Below, one piece after another: positions 1 to 40,800 of a stretch of 64,000 bases of DNA. The translations under genes and the position numbers were made by a program. Source of the stretch: a virus. The notes under the pieces are model-generated. The model worked only from the letters and a program-made list of their open reading frames with translations, did no database searches and was not told the origin of the DNA. The DNA lies in IMG/VR virus record IMGVR_UViG_3300037189_011323, positions 53,101 through 117,100 of that record, one strand, 5' to 3'. Position 1 is the first letter of the stretch. Each line of letters starts with the position of its first letter.

Positions 1-573
1 GAAGCAAGTGACGGAAATACAGAAACAGCCGTTGAGTTCTGTTATTTTCAAAATTATTGGGCTATGCATGATGTTTGGAGTATAACATCACCAAATGGTA
101 GTCCACAACAAGCATGGCAAGCAGGATTTCGTGAAGGTGTTAAACTTTGTCTTGACCGTGGTCGCCGTGTAAATCCAGAAGAATTTGAAAAGGCAACCTG
201 GTTAGGCAATCGCACAAATCTTGTTATTTGGTGTAGTATCGGTGCTGATGTTGAATATGGCAAATATGCAATGTTGGGTGCTCGTCAAGGTGCTTTTAAA
301 ACCATGTTCGATGATGATTGGGACTATACAGAAGTTCGTGATTTTGATAAGTTAGAAAATATTTGGAATGATAGTTTAGAATATAACGACAAAGAAAGTG
401 AAACGTTTGCAAGAATGTTGCGTAAACGTTTAAATCTTGATATAGTGACTTTTAATGCTGAACAAAGTAAATGGTTTAAAAATCATCAACGTACATATCA
501 AAATATTGATATTATGTTACCAGAAAGAGATGTAGGAAATGTCATCCGAAGTGCTGCTAGACAACTCTGGTGA
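1..573 (+). CDS. Glycosyltransferase-like phage protein, C-terminal part
   Basis: The reading frame is open from the first base, so the start lies outside the window and 190 codons remain. The visible part carries AWQAGFREGVKLC followed by a WCSIGAD...YGKYAMLGARQG segment. The protein at 8124-9659 has the corresponding TWRTAFREVIKL and RLWSW segments near its own C-terminus, so the two look like distant members of one family. I associate this C-terminal pattern with phage proteins that have a glycosyltransferase-like N-terminal half, but that half is not visible here. The 3' end overlaps the first radical SAM gene by 35 bases, so it probably belongs to the same transcript. Function is inferred and moderately uncertain. 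Confidence 0.55.
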   Translation, partial: EASDGNTETAVEFCYFQNYWAMHDVWSITSPNGSPQQAWQAGFREGVKLCLDRGRRVNPEEFEKATWLGNRTNLVIWCSIGADVEYGKYAMLGARQGAFKTMFDDDWDYTEVRDFDKLENIWNDSLEYNDKESETFARMLRKRLNLDIVTFNAEQSKWFKNHQRTYQNIDIMLPERDVGNVIRSAARQLW

Positions 574-1978
574 TACTGCCACAGTTAACGAAGATAACAC
601 ATTAAAAAGTGATTTTCTAACCGCCGCTGAAAAAATGCAGCAGAAGTTAGGTAATTCACTTTGCCTTTCCAAATGGATGCAAACGAGTTTGCACCTAACA
701 ACTGGTCATACTAATAGTTGCTACCATCCACCACTACATAGGATAAATGCAGATGATCTCACCGATAACCCCAGTGCACTCCACAACACTGAATTTAAAA
801 AAACGCAAAGACAGCGAATGCTACTTGGAGAACGCCCAGAAGAATGTAGTTACTGTTGGCGAGTTGAAGCCACAGGAAACTTATCAGATAGACATTACAG
901 ATCGGGAGAACCTTGGGCTGCTAATAAGTATAATGAGATTCTTATTCAAGACCCCTTAACTTGGAATGTAAATCCAGCTTATGTAGAAGTAAATTTTAGT
1001 AATGTTTGTAACTTACAATGTAGCTATTGTTCGCCACAATTTAGTAGTGCGTGGCAAAAGGAAATAAATGAAAACGGTGCTTATCCTACTTCTAATTCCC
1101 ACAATAGTCCTTCTTACTTTACTACTGATCGTAGAGTTATACCAAACAGGGAAAGTAATGTTTATGTTGATGCGTTCTGGCGATGGTGGCCAGAACTCTA
1201 CCCAAACCTAAAACATTTTCGTATGACAGGCGGTGAACCACTGCTTGACAAAAACACTTATCGTGTATTTGATTATGTATTAGACCATCCTAAAAAAGAT
1301 TTACATCTAAACGTAACAAGTAACTTTAGCCAAGATGAATATGTATTTGAAAAATATCTCACTTATGTAAAGCATATGTGTGGTAATAAAGTGTTAGAGC
1401 ATTTCATGCAGTTTGTCTCTATTGATGGTTATGGTGAACGTGCTGAATATGGTCGTCATGGTCTTGATTTTAAACTTATGCAATCTAACGTTGAGAAGTT
1501 CTTAACAGATATACCAGGTCGTAATAGCGTAACTTTTATCATTACGATGAATGTGCTAAACATCACAAGTCTTAAAGAATTGATGCAATGGATACTTGAA
1601 CTTCGTAACAAATACAATACAACGTATCAACGTGTTTGGTTTGATACTCCAATTCTTCGTGAACCTAAATGGCAATGTGTTGATATACTGCCAGAAAGTT
1701 ATGCTTGGTTCTTACAGAATATTGTTGATTGGATGAAGCCACAGACAGAAACGGTTGATACAAGATTTAATGGTTTTAAAGATTATGAAATAACTAAATT
1801 ACAACGTGTTGTAGATTGGATGCGTGAACATCACCGTGAAGATAATAAAGCTATGGCAGATTTTTATAAATTTTTTGCTGAACATGATAGCCGCCGCAAA
1901 ACTAATTTTTTACAAACCTTTCCAGAAATGGTAGAATGGTGGGATAATTGCAAATATTGGGCAGATAATGCGAAGTAA
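539..1978 (+). CDS. Radical SAM enzyme with N-terminal SPASM-like domain (array member 1)
   Basis: The protein has 479 residues. The radical SAM cluster motif CNLQCSYC (C157, C161, C164) should bind a [4Fe-4S] cluster that cleaves S-adenosylmethionine. A GGEP motif for SAM binding follows near residue 232. Ahead of the core, C42, C61 and C103/C106 (GERPEECSYCW) form a SPASM/twitch-like auxiliary-cluster domain. In most SPASM enzymes this domain is C-terminal, so here the order is permuted. This member has SCYHPP where members 3-5 have a CC pair. It overlaps both neighbours. The substrate is unknown; SPASM enzymes typically modify peptides or other macromolecules. Radical SAM assignment is firm, role is not. 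Confidence 0.9.
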   Translation: MSSEVLLDNSGDTATVNEDNTLKSDFLTAAEKMQQKLGNSLCLSKWMQTSLHLTTGHTNSCYHPPLHRINADDLTDNPSALHNTEFKKTQRQRMLLGERPEECSYCWRVEATGNLSDRHYRSGEPWAANKYNEILIQDPLTWNVNPAYVEVNFSNVCNLQCSYCSPQFSSAWQKEINENGAYPTSNSHNSPSYFTTDRRVIPNRESNVYVDAFWRWWPELYPNLKHFRMTGGEPLLDKNTYRVFDYVLDHPKKDLHLNVTSNFSQDEYVFEKYLTYVKHMCGNKVLEHFMQFVSIDGYGERAEYGRHGLDFKLMQSNVEKFLTDIPGRNSVTFIITMNVLNITSLKELMQWILELRNKYNTTYQRVWFDTPILREPKWQCVDILPESYAWFLQNIVDWMKPQTETVDTRFNGFKDYEITKLQRVVDWMREHHREDNKAMADFYKFFAEHDSRRKTNFLQTFPEMVEWWDNCKYWADNAK

Positions 1979-3326
1979 AAAACCAGAAGAATCTTTTTTA
2001 GAATATAAACAACGTGTGTTAGATACAAAAAGTAAATCTTTTTGTGGTGCTAAATGGTATAATGCAACTATATGGCTTGGTAGTGGACAAACGACAAGTT
2101 GTCACCACCCACTTCCGCATACTATACCTGTAAATGAATTAGAAAAAAATCCAAGTGTATTGCATAACACATATCAAAAGAAGACTGAACGTGCAATGAT
2201 GCAACAGGGGGAACGTCCAAAAGGATGTGAATATTGTTGGCGTATTGAGGATAACAGTGATATAGCTATCAGTGACCGTCCTTACAAAAGTATGATATAT
2301 AGTGAAGAAGAATTGAACGAGGCATTTCGTCTACCATTTGATACTGACGTAAATCTTCGCACTTTGGAGATAGCCTTTGATAGAACTTGTAACTTTGCTT
2401 GTAGCTATTGTAATCCCGCTTTTAGTACTACTTGGGTTAAAGACATTAAAGTTAATGGACCATACGTTGACCTTGTTAGCGATGGTCGCAATCATTTTAC
2501 CCATATACATGATTCTTCTCAGCTATATAGTTTCTCTGATACGAATCCATATGTAGAAGCATTCTTTAAATGGTGGGAAACTGACCTATATAAGACACTA
2601 CGTGAATTACGTATAACTGGTGGTGAACCACTTATGAGTGGACATACATGGAAGTTGCTTGATTGGTTTAAAAACAATCGTGGTAAAAGCCGAACGAAAC
2701 TTGCAATTAACAGCAATCTTGGTATTGAACGAGAAAAACTTGTAGAGTTTGTAGATAATATTCGTGAATTGCCACACGTTGAAGTTTATACAAGTTGTGA
2801 AGCATTTAAAGAGCAAGCTGAATATATTCGTGATGGTTTAAATTATTATCAATGGTTTGATAATTTAGTTTACCTACAAAATAGTGGTGCTGTTAAACAA
2901 TTACACGTAATGGCAACTATTAATGGATTATGTTTGCCATCATTACCAAATTTTCTTGAACACATGATGGATTTTAAAATGGGTTATGGTCGTGATAGTT
3001 TAACTGTTACACTTAACATTTTGCGTTTCCCAAGTTTTCAAAGTCCAATTGTAATGCCATATGGTATCAAAGAAGAATGCGCTGTTGCTCTTGAAAAGTT
3101 TTTAGAACGACATGAACATGGAAAATATTTGCATCAAATGGAAATTGAACATGTTAAACGTTTAATTCAATATTTACGTACAACAACAACTCCACATGAA
3201 GGTGCAAGTCACATTGATATTTTAGAAAAAGATTTTAAAAACTTCTATGAACAATACGACAAACGCCGTGGTAAAGATTTTATTGAAACTTTTCCTGATT
3301 TAGAAGATTGGTATAATGGCATATAA
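1968..3326 (+). CDS. Radical SAM enzyme with N-terminal SPASM-like domain (array member 2)
   Basis: The protein has 452 residues. The radical SAM motif is CNFACSYC (C141, C145, C148), and RITGGEPLM follows. The N-terminal auxiliary-cluster region has C26, C45 and C87/C90. It is closest to member 1: both share SC[YH]HP, LHNT, GERP..C.YCWR, and a C-terminal stretch ending with an R-R-x2-F-(L/I)-(Q/E)-T-F-P motif. Members 1 and 2 therefore look like a recent tandem duplication pair. The start overlaps the end of member 1 by 11 bases, which suggests translational coupling. Substrate unknown. Confidence 0.9.
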   Translation: MRSKKPEESFLEYKQRVLDTKSKSFCGAKWYNATIWLGSGQTTSCHHPLPHTIPVNELEKNPSVLHNTYQKKTERAMMQQGERPKGCEYCWRIEDNSDIAISDRPYKSMIYSEEELNEAFRLPFDTDVNLRTLEIAFDRTCNFACSYCNPAFSTTWVKDIKVNGPYVDLVSDGRNHFTHIHDSSQLYSFSDTNPYVEAFFKWWETDLYKTLRELRITGGEPLMSGHTWKLLDWFKNNRGKSRTKLAINSNLGIEREKLVEFVDNIRELPHVEVYTSCEAFKEQAEYIRDGLNYYQWFDNLVYLQNSGAVKQLHVMATINGLCLPSLPNFLEHMMDFKMGYGRDSLTVTLNILRFPSFQSPIVMPYGIKEECAVALEKFLERHEHGKYLHQMEIEHVKRLIQYLRTTTTPHEGASHIDILEKDFKNFYEQYDKRRGKDFIETFPDLEDWYNGI

Positions 3327-4587
3327 CTATAACGGCAAAGAACCAATTAAAATTGCTGTTGACGATTTAACAGATTCTCAAAAACATTTAATCTTTGAGA
3401 ACAAATCATTTTGTATGTATCCTTGGATTCATCTTCATGCATTTCCAACAGGAGAAGCATATCCGTGTTGTAATACCGAGATGCCTGAACTTGTAGGTAA
3501 CACTCGCCATAATACAATAGAAGAAATTTGGCATGGATCGGCAATGCAAGATGTTCGTAATAAGATGCTTGCTGGTGAACCAGTAAAAGGTTGCAGTCGT
3601 TGTTATGAGCAAGAAGACAATGGTTTTTTCAGTATGCGCATGAGTGCTAATAAACACTTTGGACATCATATTGCACTGACAGACAATCCCACACCGCCAA
3701 TGAAAATGATTTATTGGGATATACGTTTTAGTAATTTATGCAATCTTCGTTGTCGCAGTTGTGGTCATATCTTTAGTTCAAATTGGTATGATGATCAAGT
3801 TAAACTTGCAGGTGAAGAGTGGGGAAAAAATAACAAACGTATCAATTTTGCTGGTCGCAATGAAGATGATATTTGGAATCAGCTTGAACCGCAGATTGAT
3901 AATCTTGAACAAGTATATTTTGCTGGCGGTGAACCACTTATCATGGAAGAACATTACCGTTTGCTTAAAGAACTTATTAAGCGTGGTCGTCACGATGTTC
4001 GTCTCATTTACAATACAAACTTTACACAAACAGTTTATAAGAAAACAAATGTGTTTGAACTTTGGCGTGAGTTTAAAAGTGTAAGTGTTGGAGCAAGTTT
4101 AGACGCAATGGGTAAACACGCCGAGTATATTCGCAAGAATACGGTATGGGCAGATGTTGAACGCAATCGTGAAGAAATGTTAAAGATATGTCCACGTGTA
4201 GATTTTTATATAAGTCCAACATTAAGTGTTATGAATGCATTACACTTACCTACTTTTCATCGTGATTGGGTAGAACGTGGATTTTTAAAACCGCAAGATT
4301 TAAATATTAATATATTGCAAGATCCACCTCATTATCGTATTGATATACTGCCATTTCAATATAAAGTTGATGTGCAAGAACTTTATTTGGAGCATATTGA
4401 TTGGCTTAAACCCCAAGATTACCTGAAACGAGCAACTGCTGGATTTGAAAGTGCAATTAACTTTATGATGGCAGATGATAAGAGTAATTTGCTAGAAAAG
4501 TTTATTACTAAGACAGTTCAACTAGATAAGATACGAAATGAAAATATTTTGGAATCCATTCCAGAAATGAGATTTATTCATGAATAA
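3316..4587 (+). CDS. Radical SAM enzyme with N-terminal SPASM domain (array member 3)
   Basis: The protein has 423 residues. The N-terminus is a textbook SPASM-type module: FCMYPWIHLH, then YPCCNTE, GNTRHNTIEEIW, and GEPVKGCSRC (C33, C51, C52, C93, C96). These are the landmarks normally found at the C-terminus of SPASM enzymes. The radical SAM motif CNLRCRSC (C142, C146, C149) and AGGEPLI follow. A C-terminal partial TIM barrel fits the remaining length. It overlaps member 2 by 11 bases and member 4 by 8. The auxiliary cluster suggests electron transfer to or from a substrate, or substrate anchoring, but nothing in the sequence names the substrate. Confidence 0.92.
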   Translation: MAYNYNGKEPIKIAVDDLTDSQKHLIFENKSFCMYPWIHLHAFPTGEAYPCCNTEMPELVGNTRHNTIEEIWHGSAMQDVRNKMLAGEPVKGCSRCYEQEDNGFFSMRMSANKHFGHHIALTDNPTPPMKMIYWDIRFSNLCNLRCRSCGHIFSSNWYDDQVKLAGEEWGKNNKRINFAGRNEDDIWNQLEPQIDNLEQVYFAGGEPLIMEEHYRLLKELIKRGRHDVRLIYNTNFTQTVYKKTNVFELWREFKSVSVGASLDAMGKHAEYIRKNTVWADVERNREEMLKICPRVDFYISPTLSVMNALHLPTFHRDWVERGFLKPQDLNINILQDPPHYRIDILPFQYKVDVQELYLEHIDWLKPQDYLKRATAGFESAINFMMADDKSNLLEKFITKTVQLDKIRNENILESIPEMRFIHE

Positions 4588-5743
4588 TTTTTGTGTATTA
4601 CCATTTACTAGTATTGAAGCAGATCCAATGGGTAAATGTAAGGTATGTTGTTTATCAAAAACTACTATACCAAATATTGACCTTAAAACTAATACATTAA
4701 CAGAAGCATTTAACAGTGATTACATGCGTAATTTAAGACAACAATTTTTACAAGATGAAAAACCAAGTGAATGTGAACGTTGTTGGACAGAAGAAGCAAG
4801 TGGACGCACTAGTAAACGTATGCACAGCACTATGCGACTTCAAAAAATTTTGCAAAATAAATCTTTTACTAAAGATACTGATGGTGAACTTATTTTTCTT
4901 GATCTTAAACTTGGAAATATTTGTAATTTGAAGTGTAGAATATGTGGTAGCTTTAGTAGCAGTAAATGGGCACAGGAAGAAATTGATATATTTAAAAATA
5001 ACAATACAGCACGTGAAAATCTTGAAAATGGACGTTGGCCACGTGAAGCAAACAATTTTTGGAAAGATTTAGCAGATTTATTATCAAATACAAAATATTT
5101 TGAATTTACGGGTGGCGAACCATTTCTTATTGACGAACACTTTACATTATTAGAAATTGCAGTCAAGATGGGTTATGCAAAAGATATTGAATTGCATTAC
5201 AATACTAATACTACTACTTTTCCTAAACGTGGTTTAGAATTGTGGCCAAATTTTAAATTGGTTGAAATTGCCCTATCAATTGATGATATGGGTAAGCGGT
5301 TTGAATATCAAAGATTTGGAACAAAATGGGAAACTACTCTTGAAAATTTAGAACGTTTTAGACAATTAAGACAAAACAATAAAAATATAAAGCTACAACT
5401 GTGTTTAACTGTTAATGTACTAAATGTTTACTATCTTGATGAAATTTGTAAATGGATACCAAAACAAAAATTTAATTATGTTTATTTTAACGTATTGCAT
5501 GATGCCTGGTATTTTAGTATCAAACATTTTACTCAACGTGCTAAGGATTTAGTTAATGAAAAATATAAAAATTATACTGGTTTTTACGCTGATGAAATAA
5601 AAAATTTAATAACATTTATGAATCAGGGTGTTAGTAGTGATGGAACTGATTTGGTAAGAATACTTAAGCAAAGTGACATACAGCGTAATCAAAAGTTTAG
5701 CAATTATCATAGTGAGATAGCGGCGGCAATTGGTTATGAATGA
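4580..5743 (+). CDS. Radical SAM enzyme with N-terminal SPASM domain (array member 4)
   Basis: The protein has 387 residues and is the shortest of the five. The SPASM-like domain starts almost at the first residue (NNFCVLPF) with C5, C20, C23, C24, C65 and C68, one cysteine more than member 3. The radical SAM motif is CNLKCRIC (C115, C119, C122), and TGGEPFL follows. An IDDMGKRFEYQRFG segment corresponds to the AEYIR regions of the other members. It overlaps the following gene by 8 bases. Same family as its neighbours; substrate unknown. Confidence 0.92.
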   Translation: MNNFCVLPFTSIEADPMGKCKVCCLSKTTIPNIDLKTNTLTEAFNSDYMRNLRQQFLQDEKPSECERCWTEEASGRTSKRMHSTMRLQKILQNKSFTKDTDGELIFLDLKLGNICNLKCRICGSFSSSKWAQEEIDIFKNNNTARENLENGRWPREANNFWKDLADLLSNTKYFEFTGGEPFLIDEHFTLLEIAVKMGYAKDIELHYNTNTTTFPKRGLELWPNFKLVEIALSIDDMGKRFEYQRFGTKWETTLENLERFRQLRQNNKNIKLQLCLTVNVLNVYYLDEICKWIPKQKFNYVYFNVLHDAWYFSIKHFTQRAKDLVNEKYKNYTGFYADEIKNLITFMNQGVSSDGTDLVRILKQSDIQRNQKFSNYHSEIAAAIGYE

Positions 5744-7028
5744 TTTTTGTTTGGCACCTTGGACCCACACATATATATCACCACAAGGTGAGCGTAGGTT
5801 ATGCTGTGCATCACGAGAACCCGCACAAAATTTTAAACAGTATATTGACACTGAACACGGAAATGGTGAATTTCAAGCCTTAGCACTAGAGGAATGGTGG
5901 AATGGTGAACATATTAGAAGAATAAGAAAAGAGTGGTTATCTGGAACAATCCCAAAAGAATGTGAAGTATGCGATAAAAAGTTACTTAATACTTCTGTTT
6001 ATCGTGATTACTTTGCTCATCTCTTCGGTCATTTACGGAAGGATATTATTTCTTCTACTGACCATGAAGGTTATACAACCATAGAACCAATATCCTGGGA
6101 TTATCGTTATAGTAATGTATGCAACTTTAAGTGCCGTATGTGTGGTGACATGTTAAGTAGTGCATGGGAAGTTGAAGTGCGTAAAAATGATATGGTTGAC
6201 ATAAAAAATCCAAAGAACTATTGGATGCAACCAAAGAATCGCCATGCTATTCGTGATTTTACTCGTGATGTAGTAATACCAGAATTTCGTGAAGCTATAG
6301 AAAACAAAACTGTGCGTGAAATCTATTGGGTAGGCGGTGAACCACTATTGTATGACGAACACTGGACTTTCATGCGCCGCATCGTTGAATTAGGTTATGC
6401 AGATCAGGTCCGTGTGCGGTATAATACGAATTTAAGTTATACTAAAGATAAAGATGGAACTCTTTGGGATTTATTACACCACTTTCCACATTGGGAAATA
6501 TGTGCAAGTTTAGATGGAACAGGAGATATTGGTGAGTATATTAGAAGTGGTCTTAATTATAATGATTGGTTGGATAATTTTAAACAAGGAATCCAACATC
6601 AGCGACATGTTCGCCAAATGCGTATTGATTTTACTCTTACTTTGCCTGGTTTATATGATCTGGCCAATATTATTAATCTTGTTGATTCTCTTAATGTTTC
6701 CCTATTAAGTAAAGTAGTATTTGCTTTTAGCCCTGATATATTATTAAGTCCATTAGCTTTACCTCGTAATATATTAATACCACTTATAGAAAATATACAA
6801 GAAAATATAAAATCAAAAATAACTTACAGAACTCAAAGTTTGTGGGATGTATTGGAACATCTTAAAACTCGTCAAACTTTTGAAGAAGAATTTCCTGACA
6901 ATTATAAACAAGAGGCAAAACGAGGTAAGGCGCATCTTTTAAAATTGGAATCTATTCGTAAAGATGCTAAAATAAAATTAGAAGATATCTTAACTGGTGA
7001 TACCTTAGATTGGTGGAATAGTATATGA
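5736..7028 (+). CDS. Radical SAM enzyme with N-terminal SPASM domain (array member 5)
   Basis: I place the start at the ATG at 5736 (MNDFCLAPW), aligned with the start of member 4; a TTG two codons upstream is also possible. The protein has 430 residues. SPASM-like cysteines are C5, C23/C24 and C76/C79. A longer insert with two tryptophans (EEWWNGEHIRRIRKEW) lies between them. The radical SAM motif is CNFKCRMC (C129, C133, C136), followed by VGGEPLLYDEHW. It overlaps member 4 by 8 bases and the following unknown gene by 4, so all five enzymes and the partner look co-translated. Confidence 0.92.
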   Translation: MNDFCLAPWTHTYISPQGERRLCCASREPAQNFKQYIDTEHGNGEFQALALEEWWNGEHIRRIRKEWLSGTIPKECEVCDKKLLNTSVYRDYFAHLFGHLRKDIISSTDHEGYTTIEPISWDYRYSNVCNFKCRMCGDMLSSAWEVEVRKNDMVDIKNPKNYWMQPKNRHAIRDFTRDVVIPEFREAIENKTVREIYWVGGEPLLYDEHWTFMRRIVELGYADQVRVRYNTNLSYTKDKDGTLWDLLHHFPHWEICASLDGTGDIGEYIRSGLNYNDWLDNFKQGIQHQRHVRQMRIDFTLTLPGLYDLANIINLVDSLNVSLLSKVVFAFSPDILLSPLALPRNILIPLIENIQENIKSKITYRTQSLWDVLEHLKTRQTFEEEFPDNYKQEAKRGKAHLLKLESIRKDAKIKLEDILTGDTLDWWNSI

Positions 7029-8131
7029 ATGTTGTAATGACCCTTCGCAATCCGTTAGACAAAACAGATTTTTTAAATGTTTTTATTGAACCTAATGATA
7101 CCCAACTTGCAAAAGATTGGCAAGCAGCATTGCAGTTTGAGATACAGCGCAACTCTATTTTGGAAAAAAATTATTGTTGGCATGGTTGGCCAAATGGTGC
7201 AAGAAACCTACAATATCTTACTAGCGAATTAAGTCGTCATGCACTTAACATATGGAAGTTTAACGAACTAGGAATCTGGCAAGGTTTAGGACTACCTAAT
7301 ATTAAAATTGAAACTGTTTATACGCCTGAAACAGTTATGCTTCCGCTCACAGATGAACCTGATAGTGGTGGACCAAACCACGATGTTATGAATATAGTGC
7401 ATAATCATTTTGAACATCTGCAAGGAACTGTAGAAAATCTTAGTCCATACTACAAGATTGCACCACCAAATATAAAGTATAGCATAAGACAATTAAACAA
7501 TCTTTGCCATGAGATTGAAACATTATGTTTAAGTTTGCGTAAGCAAAAACACAAACCAGATTGGATTCGTCCTAGCCAGATTACAACCTTTTTAAATGCT
7601 AAAAGATATAATTTAACAGATGAACATCGTAATGGTTTTTTAACAAATGGACATGACCGAAAGTTTGCACATGTTTATATGCATTGGACACAGATTGGCA
7701 AAACATTACTTGAAGTATTTCGTGATGAAGATGCACCACACCTTAATCAAGTAACGTGTGATGCTATAACACATTTACAATATTACAGTGGCGAGTTTGA
7801 TATTGAATGGGGGCGTGATGTTTGTTATGGAAAACATGATTGGCATACACAAGAGATTGATAAGTTCAATGACTGGTTAAAGCGTGAAGGATATGACCCA
7901 AACAATAAATCTTTAAGTCTTGGTTATCTTGAAATTGGTAAGATTGATCTTGAAATGAGTTTTGGAACCACTGACATTTCTACAATATGGGATGTTATGG
8001 GCGACTATCTTGACATATACAGCCTTGAAGTAGATGGAGACCATGCTATCTATGATTATAGTTGGGCTGACGAAAACCATGAACAACGCCAAATTGATTA
8101 TTTGATGCCTGGTTATCGCAGTCATGTTTGA
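7025..8131 (+). CDS. Protein of unknown function, candidate partner of the radical SAM array
   Basis: The protein has 368 residues and I do not recognise the family. Both ends overlap neighbours (4 bases with radical SAM member 5, 8 bases with the glycosyltransferase-like gene), so it is embedded in the array operon. It is rich in His, Asp and Glu within predicted helices: NHDVMNIVHNHFEHLQG, FAHVYMHWTQIGKTLLEV, and CYGKHDWHTQEIDKF. This pattern could bind metal, for example in a helical-bundle iron protein, but that is only inference. No signal peptide or membrane segment is visible. Either ATG (7025 or 7037) could be the start. Confidence 0.7.
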   Translation: MNVVMTLRNPLDKTDFLNVFIEPNDTQLAKDWQAALQFEIQRNSILEKNYCWHGWPNGARNLQYLTSELSRHALNIWKFNELGIWQGLGLPNIKIETVYTPETVMLPLTDEPDSGGPNHDVMNIVHNHFEHLQGTVENLSPYYKIAPPNIKYSIRQLNNLCHEIETLCLSLRKQKHKPDWIRPSQITTFLNAKRYNLTDEHRNGFLTNGHDRKFAHVYMHWTQIGKTLLEVFRDEDAPHLNQVTCDAITHLQYYSGEFDIEWGRDVCYGKHDWHTQEIDKFNDWLKREGYDPNNKSLSLGYLEIGKIDLEMSFGTTDISTIWDVMGDYLDIYSLEVDGDHAIYDYSWADENHEQRQIDYLMPGYRSHV

Positions 8132-9659
8132 TATAGTTTGGTATGATTACAGCGATGGTGATATTCAACATTTAATTGCGAAAGCTAAACAAAGTAGCAA
8201 AACAGAATATGTTTGGCTTGCACATCGTCAACTAGATTATGTAAACTTTAATTTTCGTTGGATGCCTAACCGTCATCAACTACAATACAAACACGCTTGG
8301 CCAAGTCATAACAATGCAGAACATTATACTACATGGCTTATACCTGTTTATAATGATAGCGGAATAGTGCATCATGATCAACTCGTACCAACGATTGATA
8401 CAAAATATTATGATACATGTTTGTTGAATACAAATAGTTTTGATAATGCACATACGGTAGATTTTCAAGTTCGTTTAATAACTACCATGCAAACTGCAAT
8501 TGATACCGCAGTTAAAAAATCAACCAAACCTTGGTTGTGGATTATTGCGGATTGTTGTGAGTATGATGGGTTTGATTTTAATTGGTTACCAAATAATCAT
8601 GAGATGAATTATATTCACTGCTGGCCAAGTGGAACATGTGAAAAGGGTGATACATTTTTAATTAATGTTGATGCTTATAAACGAGGTGAACGCAATTATA
8701 ATTTTAATCATGAACCTATCAAACGTAAACGTTGGCCAAGTACAAAGGTTACGCATGATAGTTTGGTACAGGAACTTAATGCAACTCCTAGACTAAATGC
8801 AATTTACACCGTATATTCTTATGTTGGATTTATAGATTATCCAGATGTTTGTCTGTGGGAAAAACGACCTGTGGTTAGTTTAAATCGTAGCAATAGCAGT
8901 TGTCTTGTTCCACGTGATTGTGTTGTAAAAAAAGAAATATACGAATATCCATATCTTATACGTGAAACAAGTTATGGATTTGATCTTGCAATCGATGTTA
9001 TTTTTATTGAGAATGGTGAAAGTTGTGCAAAAGAAAATTATGAAAGATTGAAAAAGTTAGAACCATTGACAAAATACTGTGCTGGTGTAAATGGCAGATT
9101 AGCTGCATATAAAAATGCTGCAAACCAAAGTAACAGTGATTGGTTCATTGCTGTGTTTGCAAAGTGTCATGTGAAAGACAATTTTGACGATTTTGATTGG
9201 CAACCAGATTTTTGGCAAGAACCTAAACATTATATTTTTTATAATCACAATCGTAATAATAATTTGACATATGGACACATGGCACCTATTGCCTACAATA
9301 CAAAACTAATTTTACAAAATACGGGTGGTCTTGATATGACATTGGCGCAAATGCACACCACCGTGCCAATTTGTATAAGTGAAACCTATATTGAAGATGA
9401 TCCATGGTTGACATGGCGAACTGCGTTTCGTGAGGTAATTAAACTACTTCATTATAGTAAGAATAATCCAAGCGTTGAAAATGAATATCGACTATGGTCA
9501 TGGAAAAATATAACAAATGGAAATGATGCTATTTGGCAACAGCGTGGTGTTAAAGATGCAGAAGATTATTATAAAATGTGTGGCGACAATGAAGATGCAC
9601 TAATGTTGACAAGTGAATGGGATTGGTTGCAGGCACATTATTCATCTTTACAAAGATGA
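8124..9659 (+). CDS. Glycosyltransferase-like phage protein
   Basis: The protein has 511 residues. Three internal segments resemble one another: VWLAHRQLDYVNFNFRWMPN, WLWIIADCCEYDGFDFNWLP and WFIAVFAKCHVKDNFDDFDW. Each predicts a beta strand followed by an acidic loop and a W/Y-rich stretch, so this looks like three repeats. The last is preceded by GVNGRLAAYKNAANQS, a pattern seen in GT-A-like phage proteins. The C-terminal TWRTAFREVIKL segment is shared with the protein at 1-573. It is the last gene of the plus-strand block, and its end overlaps the opposing aminotransferase gene by 12 bases. Glycosyl transfer is inferred, not shown. Confidence 0.55.
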   Translation: MFDIVWYDYSDGDIQHLIAKAKQSSKTEYVWLAHRQLDYVNFNFRWMPNRHQLQYKHAWPSHNNAEHYTTWLIPVYNDSGIVHHDQLVPTIDTKYYDTCLLNTNSFDNAHTVDFQVRLITTMQTAIDTAVKKSTKPWLWIIADCCEYDGFDFNWLPNNHEMNYIHCWPSGTCEKGDTFLINVDAYKRGERNYNFNHEPIKRKRWPSTKVTHDSLVQELNATPRLNAIYTVYSYVGFIDYPDVCLWEKRPVVSLNRSNSSCLVPRDCVVKKEIYEYPYLIRETSYGFDLAIDVIFIENGESCAKENYERLKKLEPLTKYCAGVNGRLAAYKNAANQSNSDWFIAVFAKCHVKDNFDDFDWQPDFWQEPKHYIFYNHNRNNNLTYGHMAPIAYNTKLILQNTGGLDMTLAQMHTTVPICISETYIEDDPWLTWRTAFREVIKLLHYSKNNPSVENEYRLWSWKNITNGNDAIWQQRGVKDAEDYYKMCGDNEDALMLTSEWDWLQAHYSSLQR

Positions 9660-10748
9660 AATTACAGTTTGAATAATATAATCAACTTGTTCATCAGTAA
9701 GATGTGTATGACTTGGCAAACTAATTATTTTACCAGATAAAGATTCACTTTTAACACACTGATGTTGATTCCACTGTTTAGCAAATTTTTGAGTATGCAA
9801 TGGATGTTTATAATGACTGCTATAATTTATTTTTGCATTTTTTAAGTAATTGCATGTTTTTTCATAATCGTTGGTTACAATTGGCATAACATACCAATTA
9901 TAGAGATTTTGAAATGCAAATTTTGGAATTTTAATTTGATTGTGATTTGAAAATGCTTCACAATATTTTTTAATTATTTGGACTTTTCTTGTGAAAATTT
10001 TTTCATAATTTTTAATATTTGCTGTAATAAGTGCAGCTTGTATACTTGTTATTCTGGATGTAAATCCAACATTATCAATATTACTATCAAAACCATAAAA
10101 AGATTTACCATTTGAGCAAATTGAATCTAATAATAATGTATCAATTTTGTTAGTGATGATTGCACCACCACCGCCAGCACCCCCAAAATTTTTGTAAGGA
10201 TTAAAACTTATACAAATAGCATCTGCTATAGTTTGATCATAATCTTTTGTTGTTATACTAAAACTCTGTGCAGCATCAATGATAAGTTTTAAATTTCTCT
10301 CGTCACACCATTTCTTTAAATTATAAATGTCACAACCTTGACCATATAAATCAACGACTAAAACAGCACTTACTTCATTAGCATACAAATTATAAACACG
10401 AGTAAGATCATTTAAATCTAACAACCAACTGTCATCAATATCAACAAATGTTGGAATACAATTAGCATTTAAAACAGACTGCGCAGTAGCTGCATATGTC
10501 ATTGTTGGTATTAATATTCTTGAATCTTTTGGAAGATTTAACGATAAGATACCTGCATGTAATGCGGCCGTGCATGTGCTTGTTAATTGCACACTTGCAT
10601 TATTATATAAATTACTAATAAATTTTTTTAATTCAATCTCATGTTGACCACGATAAACTTCACCGTATTCTAAAGTAAATTTTAAATTTTTTAAAATTTC
10701 TTCATTATTGTCTTGATATTGTAAATCCAAATCCGAAAATTTTATCAT
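9648..10748 (-). CDS. DegT/DnrJ/EryC1/StrS-family PLP-dependent sugar aminotransferase
   Basis: The protein has 366 residues, normal for the family. Family landmarks are STCTAALHAGI (about 57-67), PTMTYAATA (81-89), IIDAAQSFS (156-164) and SFNPYKNFGGAGGGGA, in which K186 is the expected lysine that forms the Schiff base with PLP. These enzymes transfer an amino group to a keto-sugar nucleotide. It overlaps the epimerase gene by 4 bases and is transcribed after it. Together with that gene and the glycosyltransferase-like genes next door it suggests synthesis of an amino sugar. The sugar cannot be named from sequence. Confidence 0.9.
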   Translation of the reverse strand: MIKFSDLDLQYQDNNEEILKNLKFTLEYGEVYRGQHEIELKKFISNLYNNASVQLTSTCTAALHAGILSLNLPKDSRILIPTMTYAATAQSVLNANCIPTFVDIDDSWLLDLNDLTRVYNLYANEVSAVLVVDLYGQGCDIYNLKKWCDERNLKLIIDAAQSFSITTKDYDQTIADAICISFNPYKNFGGAGGGGAIITNKIDTLLLDSICSNGKSFYGFDSNIDNVGFTSRITSIQAALITANIKNYEKIFTRKVQIIKKYCEAFSNHNQIKIPKFAFQNLYNWYVMPIVTNDYEKTCNYLKNAKINYSSHYKHPLHTQKFAKQWNQHQCVKSESLSGKIISLPSHTHLTDEQVDYIIQTVISSL

Positions 10749-11617
10749 AGTAATATTTTTATACCACTTTCTAAATCAACTTTGGGGGTATAACCAAGAT
10801 ATCTAACAGCAGTGCGTGTATCCATTGCACCACGACGAGGCATGTCCTCTGGTAAATCACGACCACAAATAATTTCACTTTCGCTTTGTGTCAATTCAAC
10901 GATAAGTTTAGCCGCATCATACAAACTTACAGCTTGACCATAACTCACATTAGCAATAACTTTGCTTACTGGTGATGTGGCAGCATTAACGATTGCTTGT
11001 GTAATATCACTTACATATGTAAAGTCAAGTTTAGCTAATGGATCATCTACATTAATTGGTTCATTATTTCTAGCTGATAATATCCATTTACTGATTACTC
11101 TGTTAGGATTATCACCAATTCCATATGCAGCCGTTGGTCTTGTGATAACCCAATTCTTTGCAATATCCTGAACTAATCGTTCACATGCAAGTTTAGCTTT
11201 ACCGTAATCATTAATGGGACGAAGTGGATCATCTTCACGAACAGTTCCAACCCAATTTCCATAAACCATGCTACTGCTTATATAAACAAACTTTGCATTT
11301 GGGTATTTGGTTAATAGATATACAGTTGAATTAATAGTGTTTTGCCAAGCATTGCCAATTTCTTTTGCAAAACTTGCTTGGTTAGGATGGCAAGCAAGAT
11401 GAACAATAACATCTACATCTTCTACAATGGTTTGTGCACAATCACAATTTAACCAATCATCATAACCATAATCCATACGACGACCACGATCAAGATATAA
11501 TTGTGTTGTAATAAAACGTAGGTCATCAACAATTGTTACCTTATGTTTTTTATTCTTAAGTGAATTTACAACATGATGACCAATAAACCCAAAACCACCC
11601 GTAACTAAAACGTGCAT
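10745..11617 (-). CDS. NAD-dependent epimerase/dehydratase (extended SDR), nucleotide-sugar type
   Basis: The protein has 290 residues. The N-terminal Rossmann motif VTGGFGFIGHHVV binds NAD(P). The acidic VDD follows the second strand. ISSSMVYG and DYGKAKLACERLV supply the catalytic Ser/Tyr/Lys set of extended short-chain dehydrogenases. Such enzymes act on nucleotide sugars such as UDP-glucose or UDP-glucuronate. At 290 residues it is a little shorter than typical UDP-sugar 4-epimerases. It lies one base after the end of thyA and is coupled to the aminotransferase. Confidence 0.88.
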   Translation of the reverse strand: MHVLVTGGFGFIGHHVVNSLKNKKHKVTIVDDLRFITTQLYLDRGRRMDYGYDDWLNCDCAQTIVEDVDVIVHLACHPNQASFAKEIGNAWQNTINSTVYLLTKYPNAKFVYISSSMVYGNWVGTVREDDPLRPINDYGKAKLACERLVQDIAKNWVITRPTAAYGIGDNPNRVISKWILSARNNEPINVDDPLAKLDFTYVSDITQAIVNAATSPVSKVIANVSYGQAVSLYDAAKLIVELTQSESEIICGRDLPEDMPRRGAMDTRTAVRYLGYTPKVDLESGIKILL

Positions 11618-29596: not shown

Positions 29597-30727
29597 TTAT
29601 TCTACTCTTCTTTCTATGTCACAAGTAATACAATGTAAACTACCTTCCCAAAAAACATCATTTGACCATTCAACATAGATTGCAGTAATACCATCGTTTT
29701 TTAAAACTGAATAAAAGTTCCTGTCATAAAACGGTAAAATTATTGTTTCTGGATTAATTGTTAAACAATTAACTTTTTTGTTATTTTTTTTAAAAAGAGG
29801 TTGCCACTTATGTAACCACAAACTTGGATCGTATTGTTCTTGCACAAAAGAAGATGGCAAGGTTTTAATCCACTCATTACTATTTTCTGGAACATATATT
29901 TTTTTAAAATAATTAGATAAAACGTTTTCTTTATTAAAAGAAATTATTGAATCAGAATTTAAAATACAAATTTCACTATCTAAATGTCCAATTGCATCAA
30001 CGTAAATTAATTCAATTCCCAAAAAGTTAAGCCAATTTTTCATCCATATTTTGCCTAATTCTGTTCCACTATATTTGCTAATAAAACACTTACTATTATG
30101 TTTTAAAATAGAAGCAGTGTGAAAATAATTTTTTGAATAATTTGAAATGTTATGTTTTATTAACCACTCCAATTTATTAAATGGATCAACTTTTTTTATA
30201 TTTTTAACAAAACTTTTTGCATGATTTATATTTTTTGGTGGAAAAATTCCTACCATTTTGAAATAATCATCATATGTTTTTAAAATATATTCAGGATTAA
30301 TTTCTACATCTTCTTGTAAATTTACCTCAGTTGAATTGACAATTAAATTACCATCCCTTAATAAATCATCACAAATTTTTTCTAGCCACAAATGTTGATA
30401 TCTACGTTCAACATAAGGTCCATACGTTGTAAAAAACATATTACCATAGACCATATAAAAATCACGCATGTTTATAAGTGGGTCATGATTTATTATTTCA
30501 ACACAATTATAATTTAACGGTTGCTTTGGTCGTAAAACTTTAACATTTAGTTGTTCTAAAATATTTTGAAAATTATTCAGTTCACGATTTGATTGTTCAA
30601 CAATACTAACAAAATCTTCTTGTTTTTTATCATCATACCTTGAAGGAATTTTATCATTTTCAAAAACAGAACCTAATATAACAGTTTTTAAACTATCATA
30701 TTCATTCCAACAGTGTATTTTGGTCAT
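29597..30727 (-). CDS. Amidinotransferase-like protein (glycine amidinotransferase family, pentein fold)
   Basis: The protein has 376 residues, near the usual length. The start CWNEYDSLKTVILGSV matches the NEWDPLxxVxVG start of arginine:glycine amidinotransferase. NMRDFYMVYGN, GHLDSEICIL (H248) and LHCITCDIERR (C366) match the RD, catalytic His and catalytic Cys regions. The family moves the amidino group of arginine to an amine. One oddity: where the animal enzyme has FDAADF with the triad Asp, this protein has FHTASI (about 202-207), so the Asp seems to be replaced. Activity may be altered or lost. It is third in a late-type operon. Confidence 0.82.
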   Translation of the reverse strand: MTKIHCWNEYDSLKTVILGSVFENDKIPSRYDDKKQEDFVSIVEQSNRELNNFQNILEQLNVKVLRPKQPLNYNCVEIINHDPLINMRDFYMVYGNMFFTTYGPYVERRYQHLWLEKICDDLLRDGNLIVNSTEVNLQEDVEINPEYILKTYDDYFKMVGIFPPKNINHAKSFVKNIKKVDPFNKLEWLIKHNISNYSKNYFHTASILKHNSKCFISKYSGTELGKIWMKNWLNFLGIELIYVDAIGHLDSEICILNSDSIISFNKENVLSNYFKKIYVPENSNEWIKTLPSSFVQEQYDPSLWLHKWQPLFKKNNKKVNCLTINPETIILPFYDRNFYSVLKNDGITAIYVEWSNDVFWEGSLHCITCDIERRVE

Positions 30728-37850: not shown

Positions 37851-40800
37851 TTAAACTTCACGCAAAGACAATCTACCCGTCTCATATTCTCTTGTAAATG
37901 TATCAAGAAGTGCTTGACCACCAGCTTCTTTATAGTGTTTTACCAATATTTCATATGCTTCCGTTGGTGTATCAGCACCAACTTCAATAAATCGATCAAC
38001 AGAGGTATCTCTATATAATGCAAACACTTTACTTGCATTTGCACGACCAATACGGTCTACAATTACATTAGAACGCTGTGGCTGTGGTTTTGGTTGTGGT
38101 TTTGGTTTTCTTACACCAGTTTTATAATCAGTTGGTGTTACCAGATGATATGGTCCATTACCATTACTAATATTATTTGCAATGTTGCGATAACCGCCAT
38201 TATTAAGATTTGCTAATGCACTTTCTTCACTATCGCCACGAACACGAACAAATACAAAGTTATTTGTATCACTTACAACATAGAACTCAATCTTGCCGCT
38301 ACCAACAACAACAATGTGATTTATATCTTGCTTGCCTATGGCTTGACGTGCGTTTCTGCTGCCCCAATGCAATCTACGATTACCACGATAAACAATCATA
38401 TTGTTATCAAATGCATTTGCATAATAATCAGCAATTTCTGCAACTTGATCTTGTGTATATTTTGCTGGATCAAAACGTGCAATAATATGGTCATCATAAT
38501 CTTCAATGCGATATGCAAGAGTATTGTAAACCTGTTCAGCATTAGGTTTGCCATCCAAACCGTTTCGCTCAATTTTTATGATTTCACCATAAAGTGATGC
38601 AATGTTATTATCACTATAATTATATCCTATAACATTCAAGTAATTTTTAACATCTTCTCTGCTAACATTTGGTATAAGATTTTTTACAGCTTCAAATTCT
38701 ATTTCATCAGTGTTTGCTTGATTTGGATAAAGTCCTAATCTGCTATACTCACGATTCTTTAAACCATTGCCCTGCATATAAATCGTTGTGACGTAAATGT
38801 TAAAATATGGGAACTTTAACAAATATGCTTGTGTATCCATATTGCGTTCATTTAGCCAATCATATGCAAGTTTAATCATTTCATATAGTTGTTCACCATG
38901 AACTTCTACTACTTCATCACCTAATTTAGTTTCAATTTTAGCAGTAATTTTACCTTGACCGATTGGTTTAACTGGCTCACGTGACTTACGAACTGCTTGA
39001 ACTTGACGCACCAATTCTTCTTTGTCAATATCACCAGTAACATATTTTGCAAATATATCAACTGTGCTACTGTCTTTCTTTACGCTATCTACAATAAGTT
39101 TATAAAACTTCTTGTGATATTCTTGTTTGCTATCTTCTGGATCAGCAGCCGCAGCCATAGCACGAACATAACGTAACATTGTGTTACGGATTTCATCATA
39201 CTTTTCAAAGTAATTGCCACCAGCACTACGAAACTCAATATAATTAGACTTGATGTTTACACTTACGTAACGATCACCTTTAGTTCCACTGATAATTTTG
39301 TTTACTTCTCTATTAGTTTGGTCAAGTAAACCAGCACGTGCATCATCCAATATCTTTGGTAGTGACTTACGGAAATCACGTGTTTCTGTTGCTTTATATG
39401 CTTGGTCAAACATACTCTTTGTCCAACGGCTGTTTAGTCGTTCAAAACGGTCTAATACATACTTGTCACCAAGCAACAATATAAGTTTAAGGTGATTTAT
39501 ATTTGCCATAGTTTGGTCAGGAACACTAACACCAATATGGAAACCTGTTGTGCGATTAGTATAATAACGGTTACGCTTTGCCCATGTGAATACGTTATTA
39601 AGTGCTTCAAGTGCATCATCAAGTAACATTGGTGGTGATACAAGTTCTACACCGCCATCTTCAAAGTCTTCTGGACTATCTAAACTGCTATCTGGTTCAA
39701 ATATCCAGTAATCACCACGACTTGTGCCGTGATAACCACTGCTTTCAACTGCGCTATAACCTGTTGCATTTTCAAAACTATTCACTAAATCATCATAAGT
39801 TACATCACCTGAACTACTGCCATCAGTCATATATGGCCAATCAAGACTATCAACATTTGTTTCACGATTAATGTAACGTGCAAAACCTTGCATTGTGTCA
39901 ATTTCGTGGATTCTTAAAAAGTCTTGCCAGTTTTCTTTATCGTTTTCATTTTCCCAATTTTCACGAACAGAAGATTCGGCTTCATCTTTTTGTTCTTCGG
40001 TTACTTCACTGTAATCATCTACGCCTACTTCATCAGCAATTGCTTGTTTCCATTCATCGCTGTTTTCATATTCATAATATTGATCACTTACATAATCGCT
40101 AAAGTTTTCATAGAATGCTTCTAATGCACGTTCTACACTGCGACGACTATTGCCATAATCACCTTCTGTAAAGAAGTCTATAATCATACGTTGGCGATCT
40201 TTGTAAGTTTCATCTGCTGGAAAATCTTCATCTTGATCATAATCTGGCTCTGGGTCTTCTTCTTCACCTTGTAGACCAGGTACATACATTTCAGTTTCAA
40301 AGCCAACACGCATTTGTTGTGCAAACTCGCTCTTGGCAAATGCTTCCAAACTCTTTGGATTCATTTTTACTTCTGCAAGGAAAGATTCTGTTAGACTTTC
40401 TTCAATGCTTTCGTTGCGTTCTGGAACTGCTACAATAGTATAACCTGGTCCCATATTATGTTCAGTTGCCCAACTTTGTGCATAACGACGAGCAGCAGTT
40501 TCACTTGCAGCAGTAAATGTATGGTAAACACCGCCCATACTACCTACAATATTATATGTAGTTTCTCCTTGCGGTGTAGCACGATGCTGTGCAATAATTA
40601 GTGGTGGTATTGTATTGCCAGCAATATCATAACCACGCTGTATTTCCCAATCTGCATATTGTCGTTGTTGTTCTGGTTGTGGTCTTGGTTGTGGAATTAG
40701 TTGACCTTGCGCATCCCATAGATTATTGTTGTTTGGTGTTCTAATTGCAATATTTGCTAATGATAGACCACGTTGTTGTGCAAAACTTTGTGCTGCTTGA

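Follow-up and report, generated by a model that had tools for sequence, protein, structure and literature searches.

Phage gene clusters that encode several radical SAM enzymes were noted in 2010 and 2017 (PMC2853527, PMC5332604). In the Campylobacter phages CP220 and CPt10, five radical SAM genes occur with a putative amidinotransferase and, in CP220, with two genes noted as nucleotide-diphospho-sugar transferase-type, shortly downstream of base-plate-type genes, in a module that is described as interchangeable (PMC2853527). A marine T4-like genome, TARA_ERS488813_N000010, carries 12 radical SAM genes, and radical SAM cassettes occur in the host recognition cluster of pelagimyophages, in the region of tail fibres and glycosyltransferases (PMC5332604, PMC7029224), but without a described gene order, partner or set of paralogue groups. 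At the sequence level, NCBIfam provides the model NF033640 (N_Twi_rSAM, twitch domain-containing radical SAM protein), a sequence family whose name gives no function or gene arrangement. The locus analysed here differs from these examples in that five distinct members of NF033640 form a fixed array with a sixth partner gene, an arrangement for which no description was found in searches of the openly licensed literature (including PMC7150976, PMC11002830 and PMC9301287).

The window, a stretch of 64,000 bases, corresponds to bases 53101-117100 of a 117,100-base virus record in IMG/VR (IMGVR_UViG_3300037189_011323). It derives from a phage, and its DNA polymerase is nearest to those of Phosso, Atu_ph07 and other jumbo phages. 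An earlier note, made from the sequence alone, had described five overlapping radical SAM genes in which a SPASM-type cysteine domain precedes the core, coupled to an unrecognised sixth gene and with glycosyltransferase-like genes at both ends, and this observation is confirmed. The genes of the array overlap by 4-14 bases, and the features of the window considered here are as follows.

1..573, + strand: 3' part (190 aa) of the 312-aa protein of family cluster 0, directly upstream of A, with a predicted GT-A (nucleotide-diphospho-sugar transferase) fold; the full gene is at 6320-7258 of locus L006
539..1978, + strand: A, N-terminal-twitch radical SAM enzyme, 479 aa
1968..3326, + strand: B, N-terminal-twitch radical SAM enzyme, 452 aa
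3316..4587, + strand: C, N-terminal-twitch radical SAM enzyme, 423 aa, fused to D in four relatives
4580..5743, + strand: D, N-terminal-twitch radical SAM enzyme, 387 aa
5730..7028, + strand: E, N-terminal-twitch radical SAM enzyme, 432 aa, with a TTG start at 5730 or an in-frame ATG at 5736
7025..8131, + strand: ORF6, the partner, 368 aa, predicted cyclophilin-like barrel with a helical insert
8124..9659, + strand: ORF7, 511 aa, C-terminal part (281-502) homologous to the GT-A-fold family upstream of A
9648..10748, - strand: DegT/DnrJ/EryC1/StrS-type sugar aminotransferase-like (PF01041, 3.7e-57)
10745..11617, - strand: NAD-dependent sugar epimerase/dehydratase-like (PF01370, 5.6e-32)
29597..30727, - strand: arginine deiminase/amidinotransferase-like protein, about 21 kb from the array

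All five enzymes score over the NF033640 cut-off of 170 bits (A to E: 335.7, 307.8, 400.1, 342.6 and 292.3 bits). The Pfam SPASM domain lies N-terminal to the radical SAM core in C (42.5 bits at 33-97), D and E, and although Pfam does not call it in A and B, the four-cysteine pattern before the core is seen in their alignment too; the Pfam Radical_SAM model is over its cut-off only in D and E. Among unique relatives longer than 360 aa that could be labelled with a clear margin (others were dropped), the CX3CX2C motif is present in 107/107 A, 118/118 B, 119/119 C, 118/118 D and 114/114 E proteins, and the N-terminal C...C...CX2C pattern in 107/107, 116/118, 119/119, 114/118 and 112/114, respectively. 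A profile of the C family aligns its N-terminal residues 28-99 to residues 183-257 of the aminoglycoside-type tailoring enzyme BtrN (1.9e-4), which form the auxiliary-cluster domain of BtrN; the domain order is reversed relative to BtrN.

The order A-B-C-D-E-ORF6 is kept in 61 of the 79 loci of a first IMG/VR scan, and of the other 18, 16 are cut by contig ends. In a second set of 80 loci, found with ORF6 alone, 60 have the order and four more (L114, L127, L160 and L164) have it with C and D fused, the first half of each fusion matching best as C (644-677 bits) and the second half best as D (594-622 bits). E is the array member next before ORF6 in 79 of the 80 loci of the second scan, and the distance from the end of E to the start of ORF6 is under 150 bases in 60 of 64 and 76 of 80 loci that have both genes. 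Exceptions exist: locus L081 lacks ORF6, and L075 has it between A and B. In a control selected by DNA polymerase, 7 of the 9 contigs of 37 kb or more among 80 loci carry ORF6, while the other two, by their coordinates, end 0.3 and 7.8 kb past the polymerase on the array side; six of the seven were already in the two scans. In a tree of the enzymes, A, B and E each form one branch at support 100, and C and D require two changes each, so the array is not a local amplification but a set of old, distinct paralogue groups. Further family members occur elsewhere in these genomes (6-14 matches per contig at E 0.001 in 13 contigs, not all over the cut-off), and some arrays hold extra, diverged copies. 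Pairwise identities co-vary (0.56-0.86), but this shows only shared inheritance and is not used as proof. Scattered single copies or unconserved cluster cysteines had been named beforehand as grounds for rejecting a coordinated system, and neither was found.

ORF6 has no hit in NCBIfam, Pfam or PHROGs at E 0.1. Its AlphaFold2 model (pLDDT 90.3) was closest to cyclophilins, with a VIA Z of 8.9 to E. coli CypB (135 aligned of 166, 3.4 A) and of 6.6 to the cyclophilin-like domain of KslB, although this rests on a predicted model only and Foldseek itself gave no PDB match under E 2. An alignment of 48 rows has 35 invariant columns, and the large helical insert holds the most conserved residues, among them the invariant H126, E130, N158, H162, E163 and E165. 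A diiron or ferritin-like protein was suspected from the His/Glu motifs but gave way to the cyclophilin-like model, which leaves the invariant His and Glu residues of the insert unexplained. The cyclophilin active-site motif F..Q.GD is absent from all 48 rows, and PPIase activity was rejected on these grounds. A PDB profile search with ORF6 gave only IFT57 chains at 0.008-0.009, taken as chance. A Foldseek search of a viral library gave ten matches at E 0.001 or better, all uncharacterised and one of them in Atu_ph07, but the ORF6 profile found nothing in Atu_ph07 or Phosso, and neither phage has an NF033640 match over the cut-off.

Among 50,697 records of isolated phages, ORF6 and the cluster-0 protein have no match at E 0.01 and 0.001, and C matches 23 records, those listed being at 21-26% identity. 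In a collection of cellular genomes, ORF6 was found in two loci, L168 and L169, both on contigs of MAGs and neither with an array gene in the stretch examined; L168 appears to have tail-like neighbours, and its contig, which seems to be contig C42 of MAG G017, has two family members about 13 kb further on. ORF6 relatives thus occur beyond this clade without an array beside them. NF033640 was matched at E 1e-55 or better in 1 of 190 genomes of one class, the MAG G018 itself, and a phage-like contig of that MAG (C6) shows a radical SAM island beside a cluster-0 gene, without the A-E order.

The flanking genes are glycosyltransferase-like, as the earlier note had proposed, but this is supported at the fold level only. 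The model of the cluster-0 protein (AlphaFold2 pLDDT 89.7) has a predicted GT-A fold over residues 4-154, with Foldseek matches to TarS, TarP and SunS at about 1e-3 (best E 8.4e-4, probability 0.96; TM-scores about 0.3) and a VIA Z of 9.2 to B4GALNT1 (142 aligned, 3.2 A). The matching rows include the nucleotidyltransferases IspD and MobA, so that the fold does not separate sugar transfer from nucleotidyl transfer, and a PDB profile search with the family gave nothing better than 0.05. The family occurs in 77 of 79 loci of the first scan (as a single-linkage cluster that also takes in ORF7-like genes), and lies within 60 bases of A in 24 of the 66 loci where it was found upstream of A, and further away in the rest. 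The homology of the C-terminal part of ORF7 is supported by hhalign (probability 96.9, 212 columns) and BLASTP (6e-8). Both the GT-A and the cyclophilin-like assignments rest on predicted models with Z of about 9 or less.

Other neighbours vary from phage to phage. In the first scan, an O-carbamoyltransferase family is found in 38 of 79 loci and an amidinotransferase family in 26 of 79, with matches to TobZ, GdmN and NovN for the former, and to AGAT, SxtG and an inosamine-phosphate amidinotransferase for the latter, although enzyme classes shared with aminoglycoside-type tailoring enzymes such as TobZ and StrB1/SxtG show no shared product. In the window, the carbamoyltransferase family is not among the genes next to the array, and the distant amidinotransferase-like gene falls just short of the Pfam cut-off (PF02274 6.9e-5, 22.5 bits against 22.8) but belongs to the same PHROG as the amidinotransferase near the array in relatives (phrog_25854, 6.5e-7, and 4.6e-12 for a relative). 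A nucleosidase-like gene follows D in 17 of 17 cases (12 before E, four before a second D-type gene and one at the end), and SAM synthetase lies downstream of ORF6 in 13 of 13, both families being named from one representative each and both found in 0 of the 80 loci of the second scan. MTA/SAH nucleosidases also cleave 5'-deoxyadenosine, and SAM supply together with by-product removal fits real turnover. Compared with CP220, which has no NF033640 match over the cut-off, the present module is fixed in order and, where contigs reach it, present throughout the clade sample.

The module follows virion structural and tail-fibre genes in the same run of genes. The strict T4 late promoter TATAAATA is not enriched, being fewer than chance in the window and absent in locus L085. 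The relaxed form ATAAATA, a short motif chosen after looking at the gaps in L085, occurs upstream of tail-fibre genes in 26 of 39 cases and of the next structural family in 13 of 49, against 0 in the control stretches of these two, whereas upstream of B, C, D, E and ORF6 it occurs in 0, and of A in 1 of 86. It is probable, then, that the module is read late.

The interpretation given in the earlier note, a coordinated and undescribed biosynthetic system acting on a glycan, a virion protein or a short peptide, is partly supported: coordination is upheld, but 'undescribed' is too strong given the earlier multi-radical-SAM modules and the existing NCBI model, and ORF6 now has a predicted fold. 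The explanation favoured here, with about even confidence, is a late-expressed biosynthetic module of Rak2/T4-like jumbo phages, in which five non-redundant radical SAM enzymes (each with one SAM-cleaving cluster and one auxiliary cluster in an N-terminal twitch domain) and ORF6 act together on one shared substrate, each enzyme making a different C-H activation step, and in which C and D, and probably the whole set, would work as an assembly. The product would most likely be a modified sugar or glycan, or a glycosylated protein, that the flanking GT-A-type proteins build or transfer, that accessory enzymes (amino-, amidino- and O-carbamoyltransferase, epimerase) decorate differently from phage to phage, and that probably ends on the tail or particle surface. 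Comparison establishes the conservation, the order, the distinct paralogue groups, the cysteines, the C-D fusion and the position downstream of tail genes, while SAM cleavage and radical turnover, sugar transfer, late expression, the common substrate, its glycan nature and its virion location are inferred, in the absence of any substrate, product or expression data. That the set is coordinated is highly likely; that the substrate bears sugar is only slightly more likely than not, and accessory sugar-type genes are not in every locus; and a destination on the virion rather than the host is evenly balanced. It could be speculated further, though only tentatively, that the five enzymes and a cyclophilin-fold partner form an ordered, virus-specific assembly line that installs a previously unknown multi-step radical modification on a virion component, either a tail glycan or the small conserved protein encoded just upstream, as part of particle maturation, with SAM synthetase and nucleosidase in some phages supplying and clearing SAM products.

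Of the alternatives, the one that survives best, although it remains unlikely, is that the enzymes are protein or peptide maturases that put several radical modifications (cross-links, epimers, thioethers) on a tail protein or on the small protein, with ORF6 presenting the polypeptide. Twitch/SPASM enzymes often act on peptides or proteins, which weighs against a glycan substrate, tail genes lie upstream, and the predicted fold of ORF6 is cyclophilin-like. A small protein family, mostly about 115 aa, is encoded upstream of the cluster-0 gene in 57 of 79 loci and within a longer protein in one more, has no match among the isolated phages, and is a candidate substrate by position alone. However, sugar-type neighbours fit glycan chemistry better, ORF6 lacks the cyclophilin motif, and the auxiliary-cluster domain is N-terminal, whereas in SPASM/twitch RiPP maturases it is usually C-terminal to the core. 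Pfam scans reported no RRE (PqqD-type) domain, although divergent RREs could be missed. Less likely again is a remodelling of the host surface polysaccharide during infection, for example to exclude other phages, as has been proposed for the glycosyltransferases of pelagimyophages (PMC7029224); the glycan-type genes would fit, but the position downstream of tail genes with late-type sites suggests late synthesis, and the conservation of the core in the clade is unlike a variable surface-exclusion cassette. DNA hypermodification was weighed because a carbamoyltransferase of this superfamily makes 5-carbamoyloxymethylcytosine (PMC8670742), but it is very unlikely. The 17 thymidylate synthases found near the array in the first scan all have Asn in the PFNIASY motif, taken as position 177, where that paper finds mostly Asn in unmodified and mostly Asp in modified contigs, so that no Asp-type (dCMP-hydroxymethylating) homologue was seen among them; 4 of 7 contigs of 289-344 kb, which may be incomplete, have no PF00303 match; and the module sits with tail genes. 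Tandem duplication without coordinated function, to which the extra family members might point, can all but be dismissed given the fixed order, the old paralogue groups, the conserved cysteines and the fusion.

The array thus points to a shared chemical modification, most likely of a sugar or protein on the virus particle, in giant phages of aquatic environments. If this reading is right, widespread aquatic jumbo phages would carry their own multi-step radical chemistry as a core late function and not as an occasional auxiliary gene. It would give a first function to a radical SAM family for which none was found described, would provide a source of new sugar or protein chemistry, and would offer a direct test of why some T4-like phages carry so many radical SAM genes.

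The window spans bases 53101-117100 of a virus record of 117,100 bases. The same array, with a C protein that is identical over its full length, is carried by L006, a stretch of a 338 kb IMG/VR contig, so the phage is probably a jumbo phage, and its DNA polymerase is nearest to those of Phosso, Atu_ph07, 121Q and similar phages. Six overlapping genes on the + strand fill positions 539-8131. The first five, here called A to E, each exceed the cut-off of NF033640 (twitch domain-containing radical SAM protein), with the cysteine domain preceding the core, and the sixth is the partner, ORF6. The other four paralogues in the window are only 21–28% identical to C.

The arrangement is real and conserved. 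A scan of IMG/VR with C gave 90 relatives, of which the best 80 (79 loci) were examined using profiles for each group. Of these, 61 of 79 have A-B-C-D-E-ORF6 in order, 16 of the other 18 run into a contig end, and of the remaining two loci, L081 has no ORF6 and L075 has it between A and B. Many loci hold further genes inside the array, some of them extra radical SAM copies. A second scan, with an ORF6 alignment, gave at least 519 relatives, of which 80 were examined. E is the array member next before ORF6 in 79 of 80, and the last locus starts at a contig edge with a fragment that scores as E. In 60 of 80 the full order is seen, while in four more (L114, L127, L160 and L164) C and D are fused into one protein of 838–857 aa, the first half of which scores best as C (644–677 bits) and the second half as D (594–622 bits). 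Twelve are cut at the contig start, and in L119, L120, L134 and L163 gene A does not lie in the flank examined. Nineteen loci are shared by the two scans, so that about 140 contigs were seen, some of which are near-copies. In four relatives an array gene is split into two frames, which could reflect either decay or assembly error:

L066:11284-12488, D split into two frames
L068:8305-9599, B split into two frames
L069:4099-5528, A split into two frames
L083:10001-11256, C split into two frames

Since both scans are ranked by likeness to the query, the DNA polymerase was used for a control scan (at least 599 relatives, 80 examined). Of the nine contigs of 37 kb or more, a length chosen after the list had been seen, seven carry ORF6. 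Six of these had been recovered in the scans with the array, and in the seventh ORF6 lies at the contig edge. Judging from the coordinates, the other two contigs end soon after the polymerase on the array side.

The five enzymes are distinct. In a tree of 141 rows, made with a quick method, A, B and E are each one branch with a support of 100, whereas C and D need two changes each, apparently owing to two long-branch rows whose labels may be wrong. The motif cysteines are kept in nearly all labelled unique relatives. An additional N-terminal domain of about 130 aa occurs on some C and some D proteins (19 and 6 hits, respectively, with six more hits to genes that had been labelled C or D) and on no other family in these loci. 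Tandem radical SAM genes were also seen in L187 and L188 (G018:C6, a contig in a MAG), a phage-like island with a cluster-0 gene (the family of the gene that overlaps A in the window) and many radical SAM genes, in which N-terminal-twitch and classical types are interleaved and which includes a 735-aa protein with two radical SAM domains.

Upstream of the array, on the same strand, lie genes for a 2745-aa virion structural protein and a tail-fibre-like protein with kin, a pair of 250–280 aa proteins without family hits, and the cluster-0 gene, which overlaps A in the window, although in relatives other genes often stand between it and A. The cluster-0 protein was modelled at pLDDT 89.7, and its first half has a predicted GT-A fold, as in glycosyltransferases and some nucleotidyltransferases. 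ORF7, downstream of ORF6, contains the same domain. The observation in the earlier note that glycosyltransferase-like genes stand at both ends is thus supported at the level of the fold. On the other strand follow genes for a DegT-type aminotransferase and a sugar epimerase, and genes of these clusters occur in 26 and 30 of 79 loci of the first scan, and in 58 and 54 of 80 loci of the second. Further neighbours in relatives are an O-carbamoyltransferase (38 of 79; 56 of 80), an AGAT/SxtG-like amidinotransferase (26 of 79; 10 of 80), an MTA/SAH-type nucleosidase-like gene (17 of 79; 0 of 80), SAM synthetase (13 of 79; 0 of 80) and a classical radical SAM/SPASM enzyme (7 of 79, all between A and B; 13 of 80). 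Each cluster was named from one representative, with the nucleosidase being over the cut-off of Pfam but under that of NCBIfam, and because the loci are of limited length these counts are lower bounds. Elsewhere in the window (37851-46388, - strand) is a gene for a 2845-aa protein whose N-terminus matches cytidyltransferase PHROGs (3041 and 395), while most of the rest has no assignment.

The sequence ATAAATA, a relaxed form of the T4 late promoter, occurs within -80..+30 of tail-fibre genes in 26 of 39 cases and of the next structural family in 13 of 49, against 0 in control stretches of these two. It is found before A in 1 of 86 cases, and before B, C, D, E and ORF6 in none. The loci are not all independent, but from this pattern we infer read-through from the tail genes.

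In seven large contigs there is one strong copy of ORF6 per genome, and one of them has a second, weak match. The predicted model of ORF6 aligns to cyclophilins at Z up to 8.9, with the barrel split by a helical insert. A Z near 8 can reflect a common arrangement, and the E-values given by Foldseek itself are above 2, but the first 25 rows are cyclophilins or cyclophilin-like chains of larger complexes, nearly all aligned over the same range. The insert is the most conserved part, with invariant H126, E130, N158, H162, E163 and E165, and no row has the motif F..Q.GD. It may be a scaffold, a substrate-holding protein, or an enzyme with its site in the insert. Distant relatives of ORF6 outside the clade stand without an array beside them. 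One of these (L168:5010-6104; 37% identity) is on a contig of an archaeal MAG, near genes that look like those of phage tail proteins and without an array gene in the stretch examined, and another (L190:9500-10486, - strand) is a second, diverged relative in a genome that also has the normal one.

Groups of radical SAM genes in phages have been described before. Timms and others (PMC2853527) described modules of five radical SAM genes with a putative amidinotransferase in CP220 and CPt10, but CP220 has none over the NF033640 cut-off. Twelve radical SAM genes have been reported in one T4-like genome (PMC5332604), and radical SAM cassettes in the host recognition cluster (PMC7029224). We found in these papers no description of the present array, its order or its partner.

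SPASM/twitch enzymes bind SAM at the CX3CX2C cluster, make a 5'-deoxyadenosyl radical and use the auxiliary cluster for electrons or substrate, and it is inferred that each of the five enzymes would most likely work in this way. While the gene order, the divergence of the five groups and the fusion are seen directly by comparison of the loci, the radical chemistry, the read-through, the shared substrate, its nature and its destination are inferences. A peptide or protein substrate is the main rival. A small protein family, mostly of about 115 aa, sits upstream of the cluster-0 gene in 57 of 79 loci, and a related-looking 75-aa protein with a proline-rich stretch and a C-terminal region that is kept in lake-type relatives is encoded in the same position in one relative (L085:16516-16743, outside the window); this could be a substrate or a chaperone. 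The fixed order, the old divergence and the fusion of C and D argue for successive steps on one substrate, the sugar-type neighbours argue for a glycan or glycoprotein, and the place of the array downstream of the tail genes argues for the particle.
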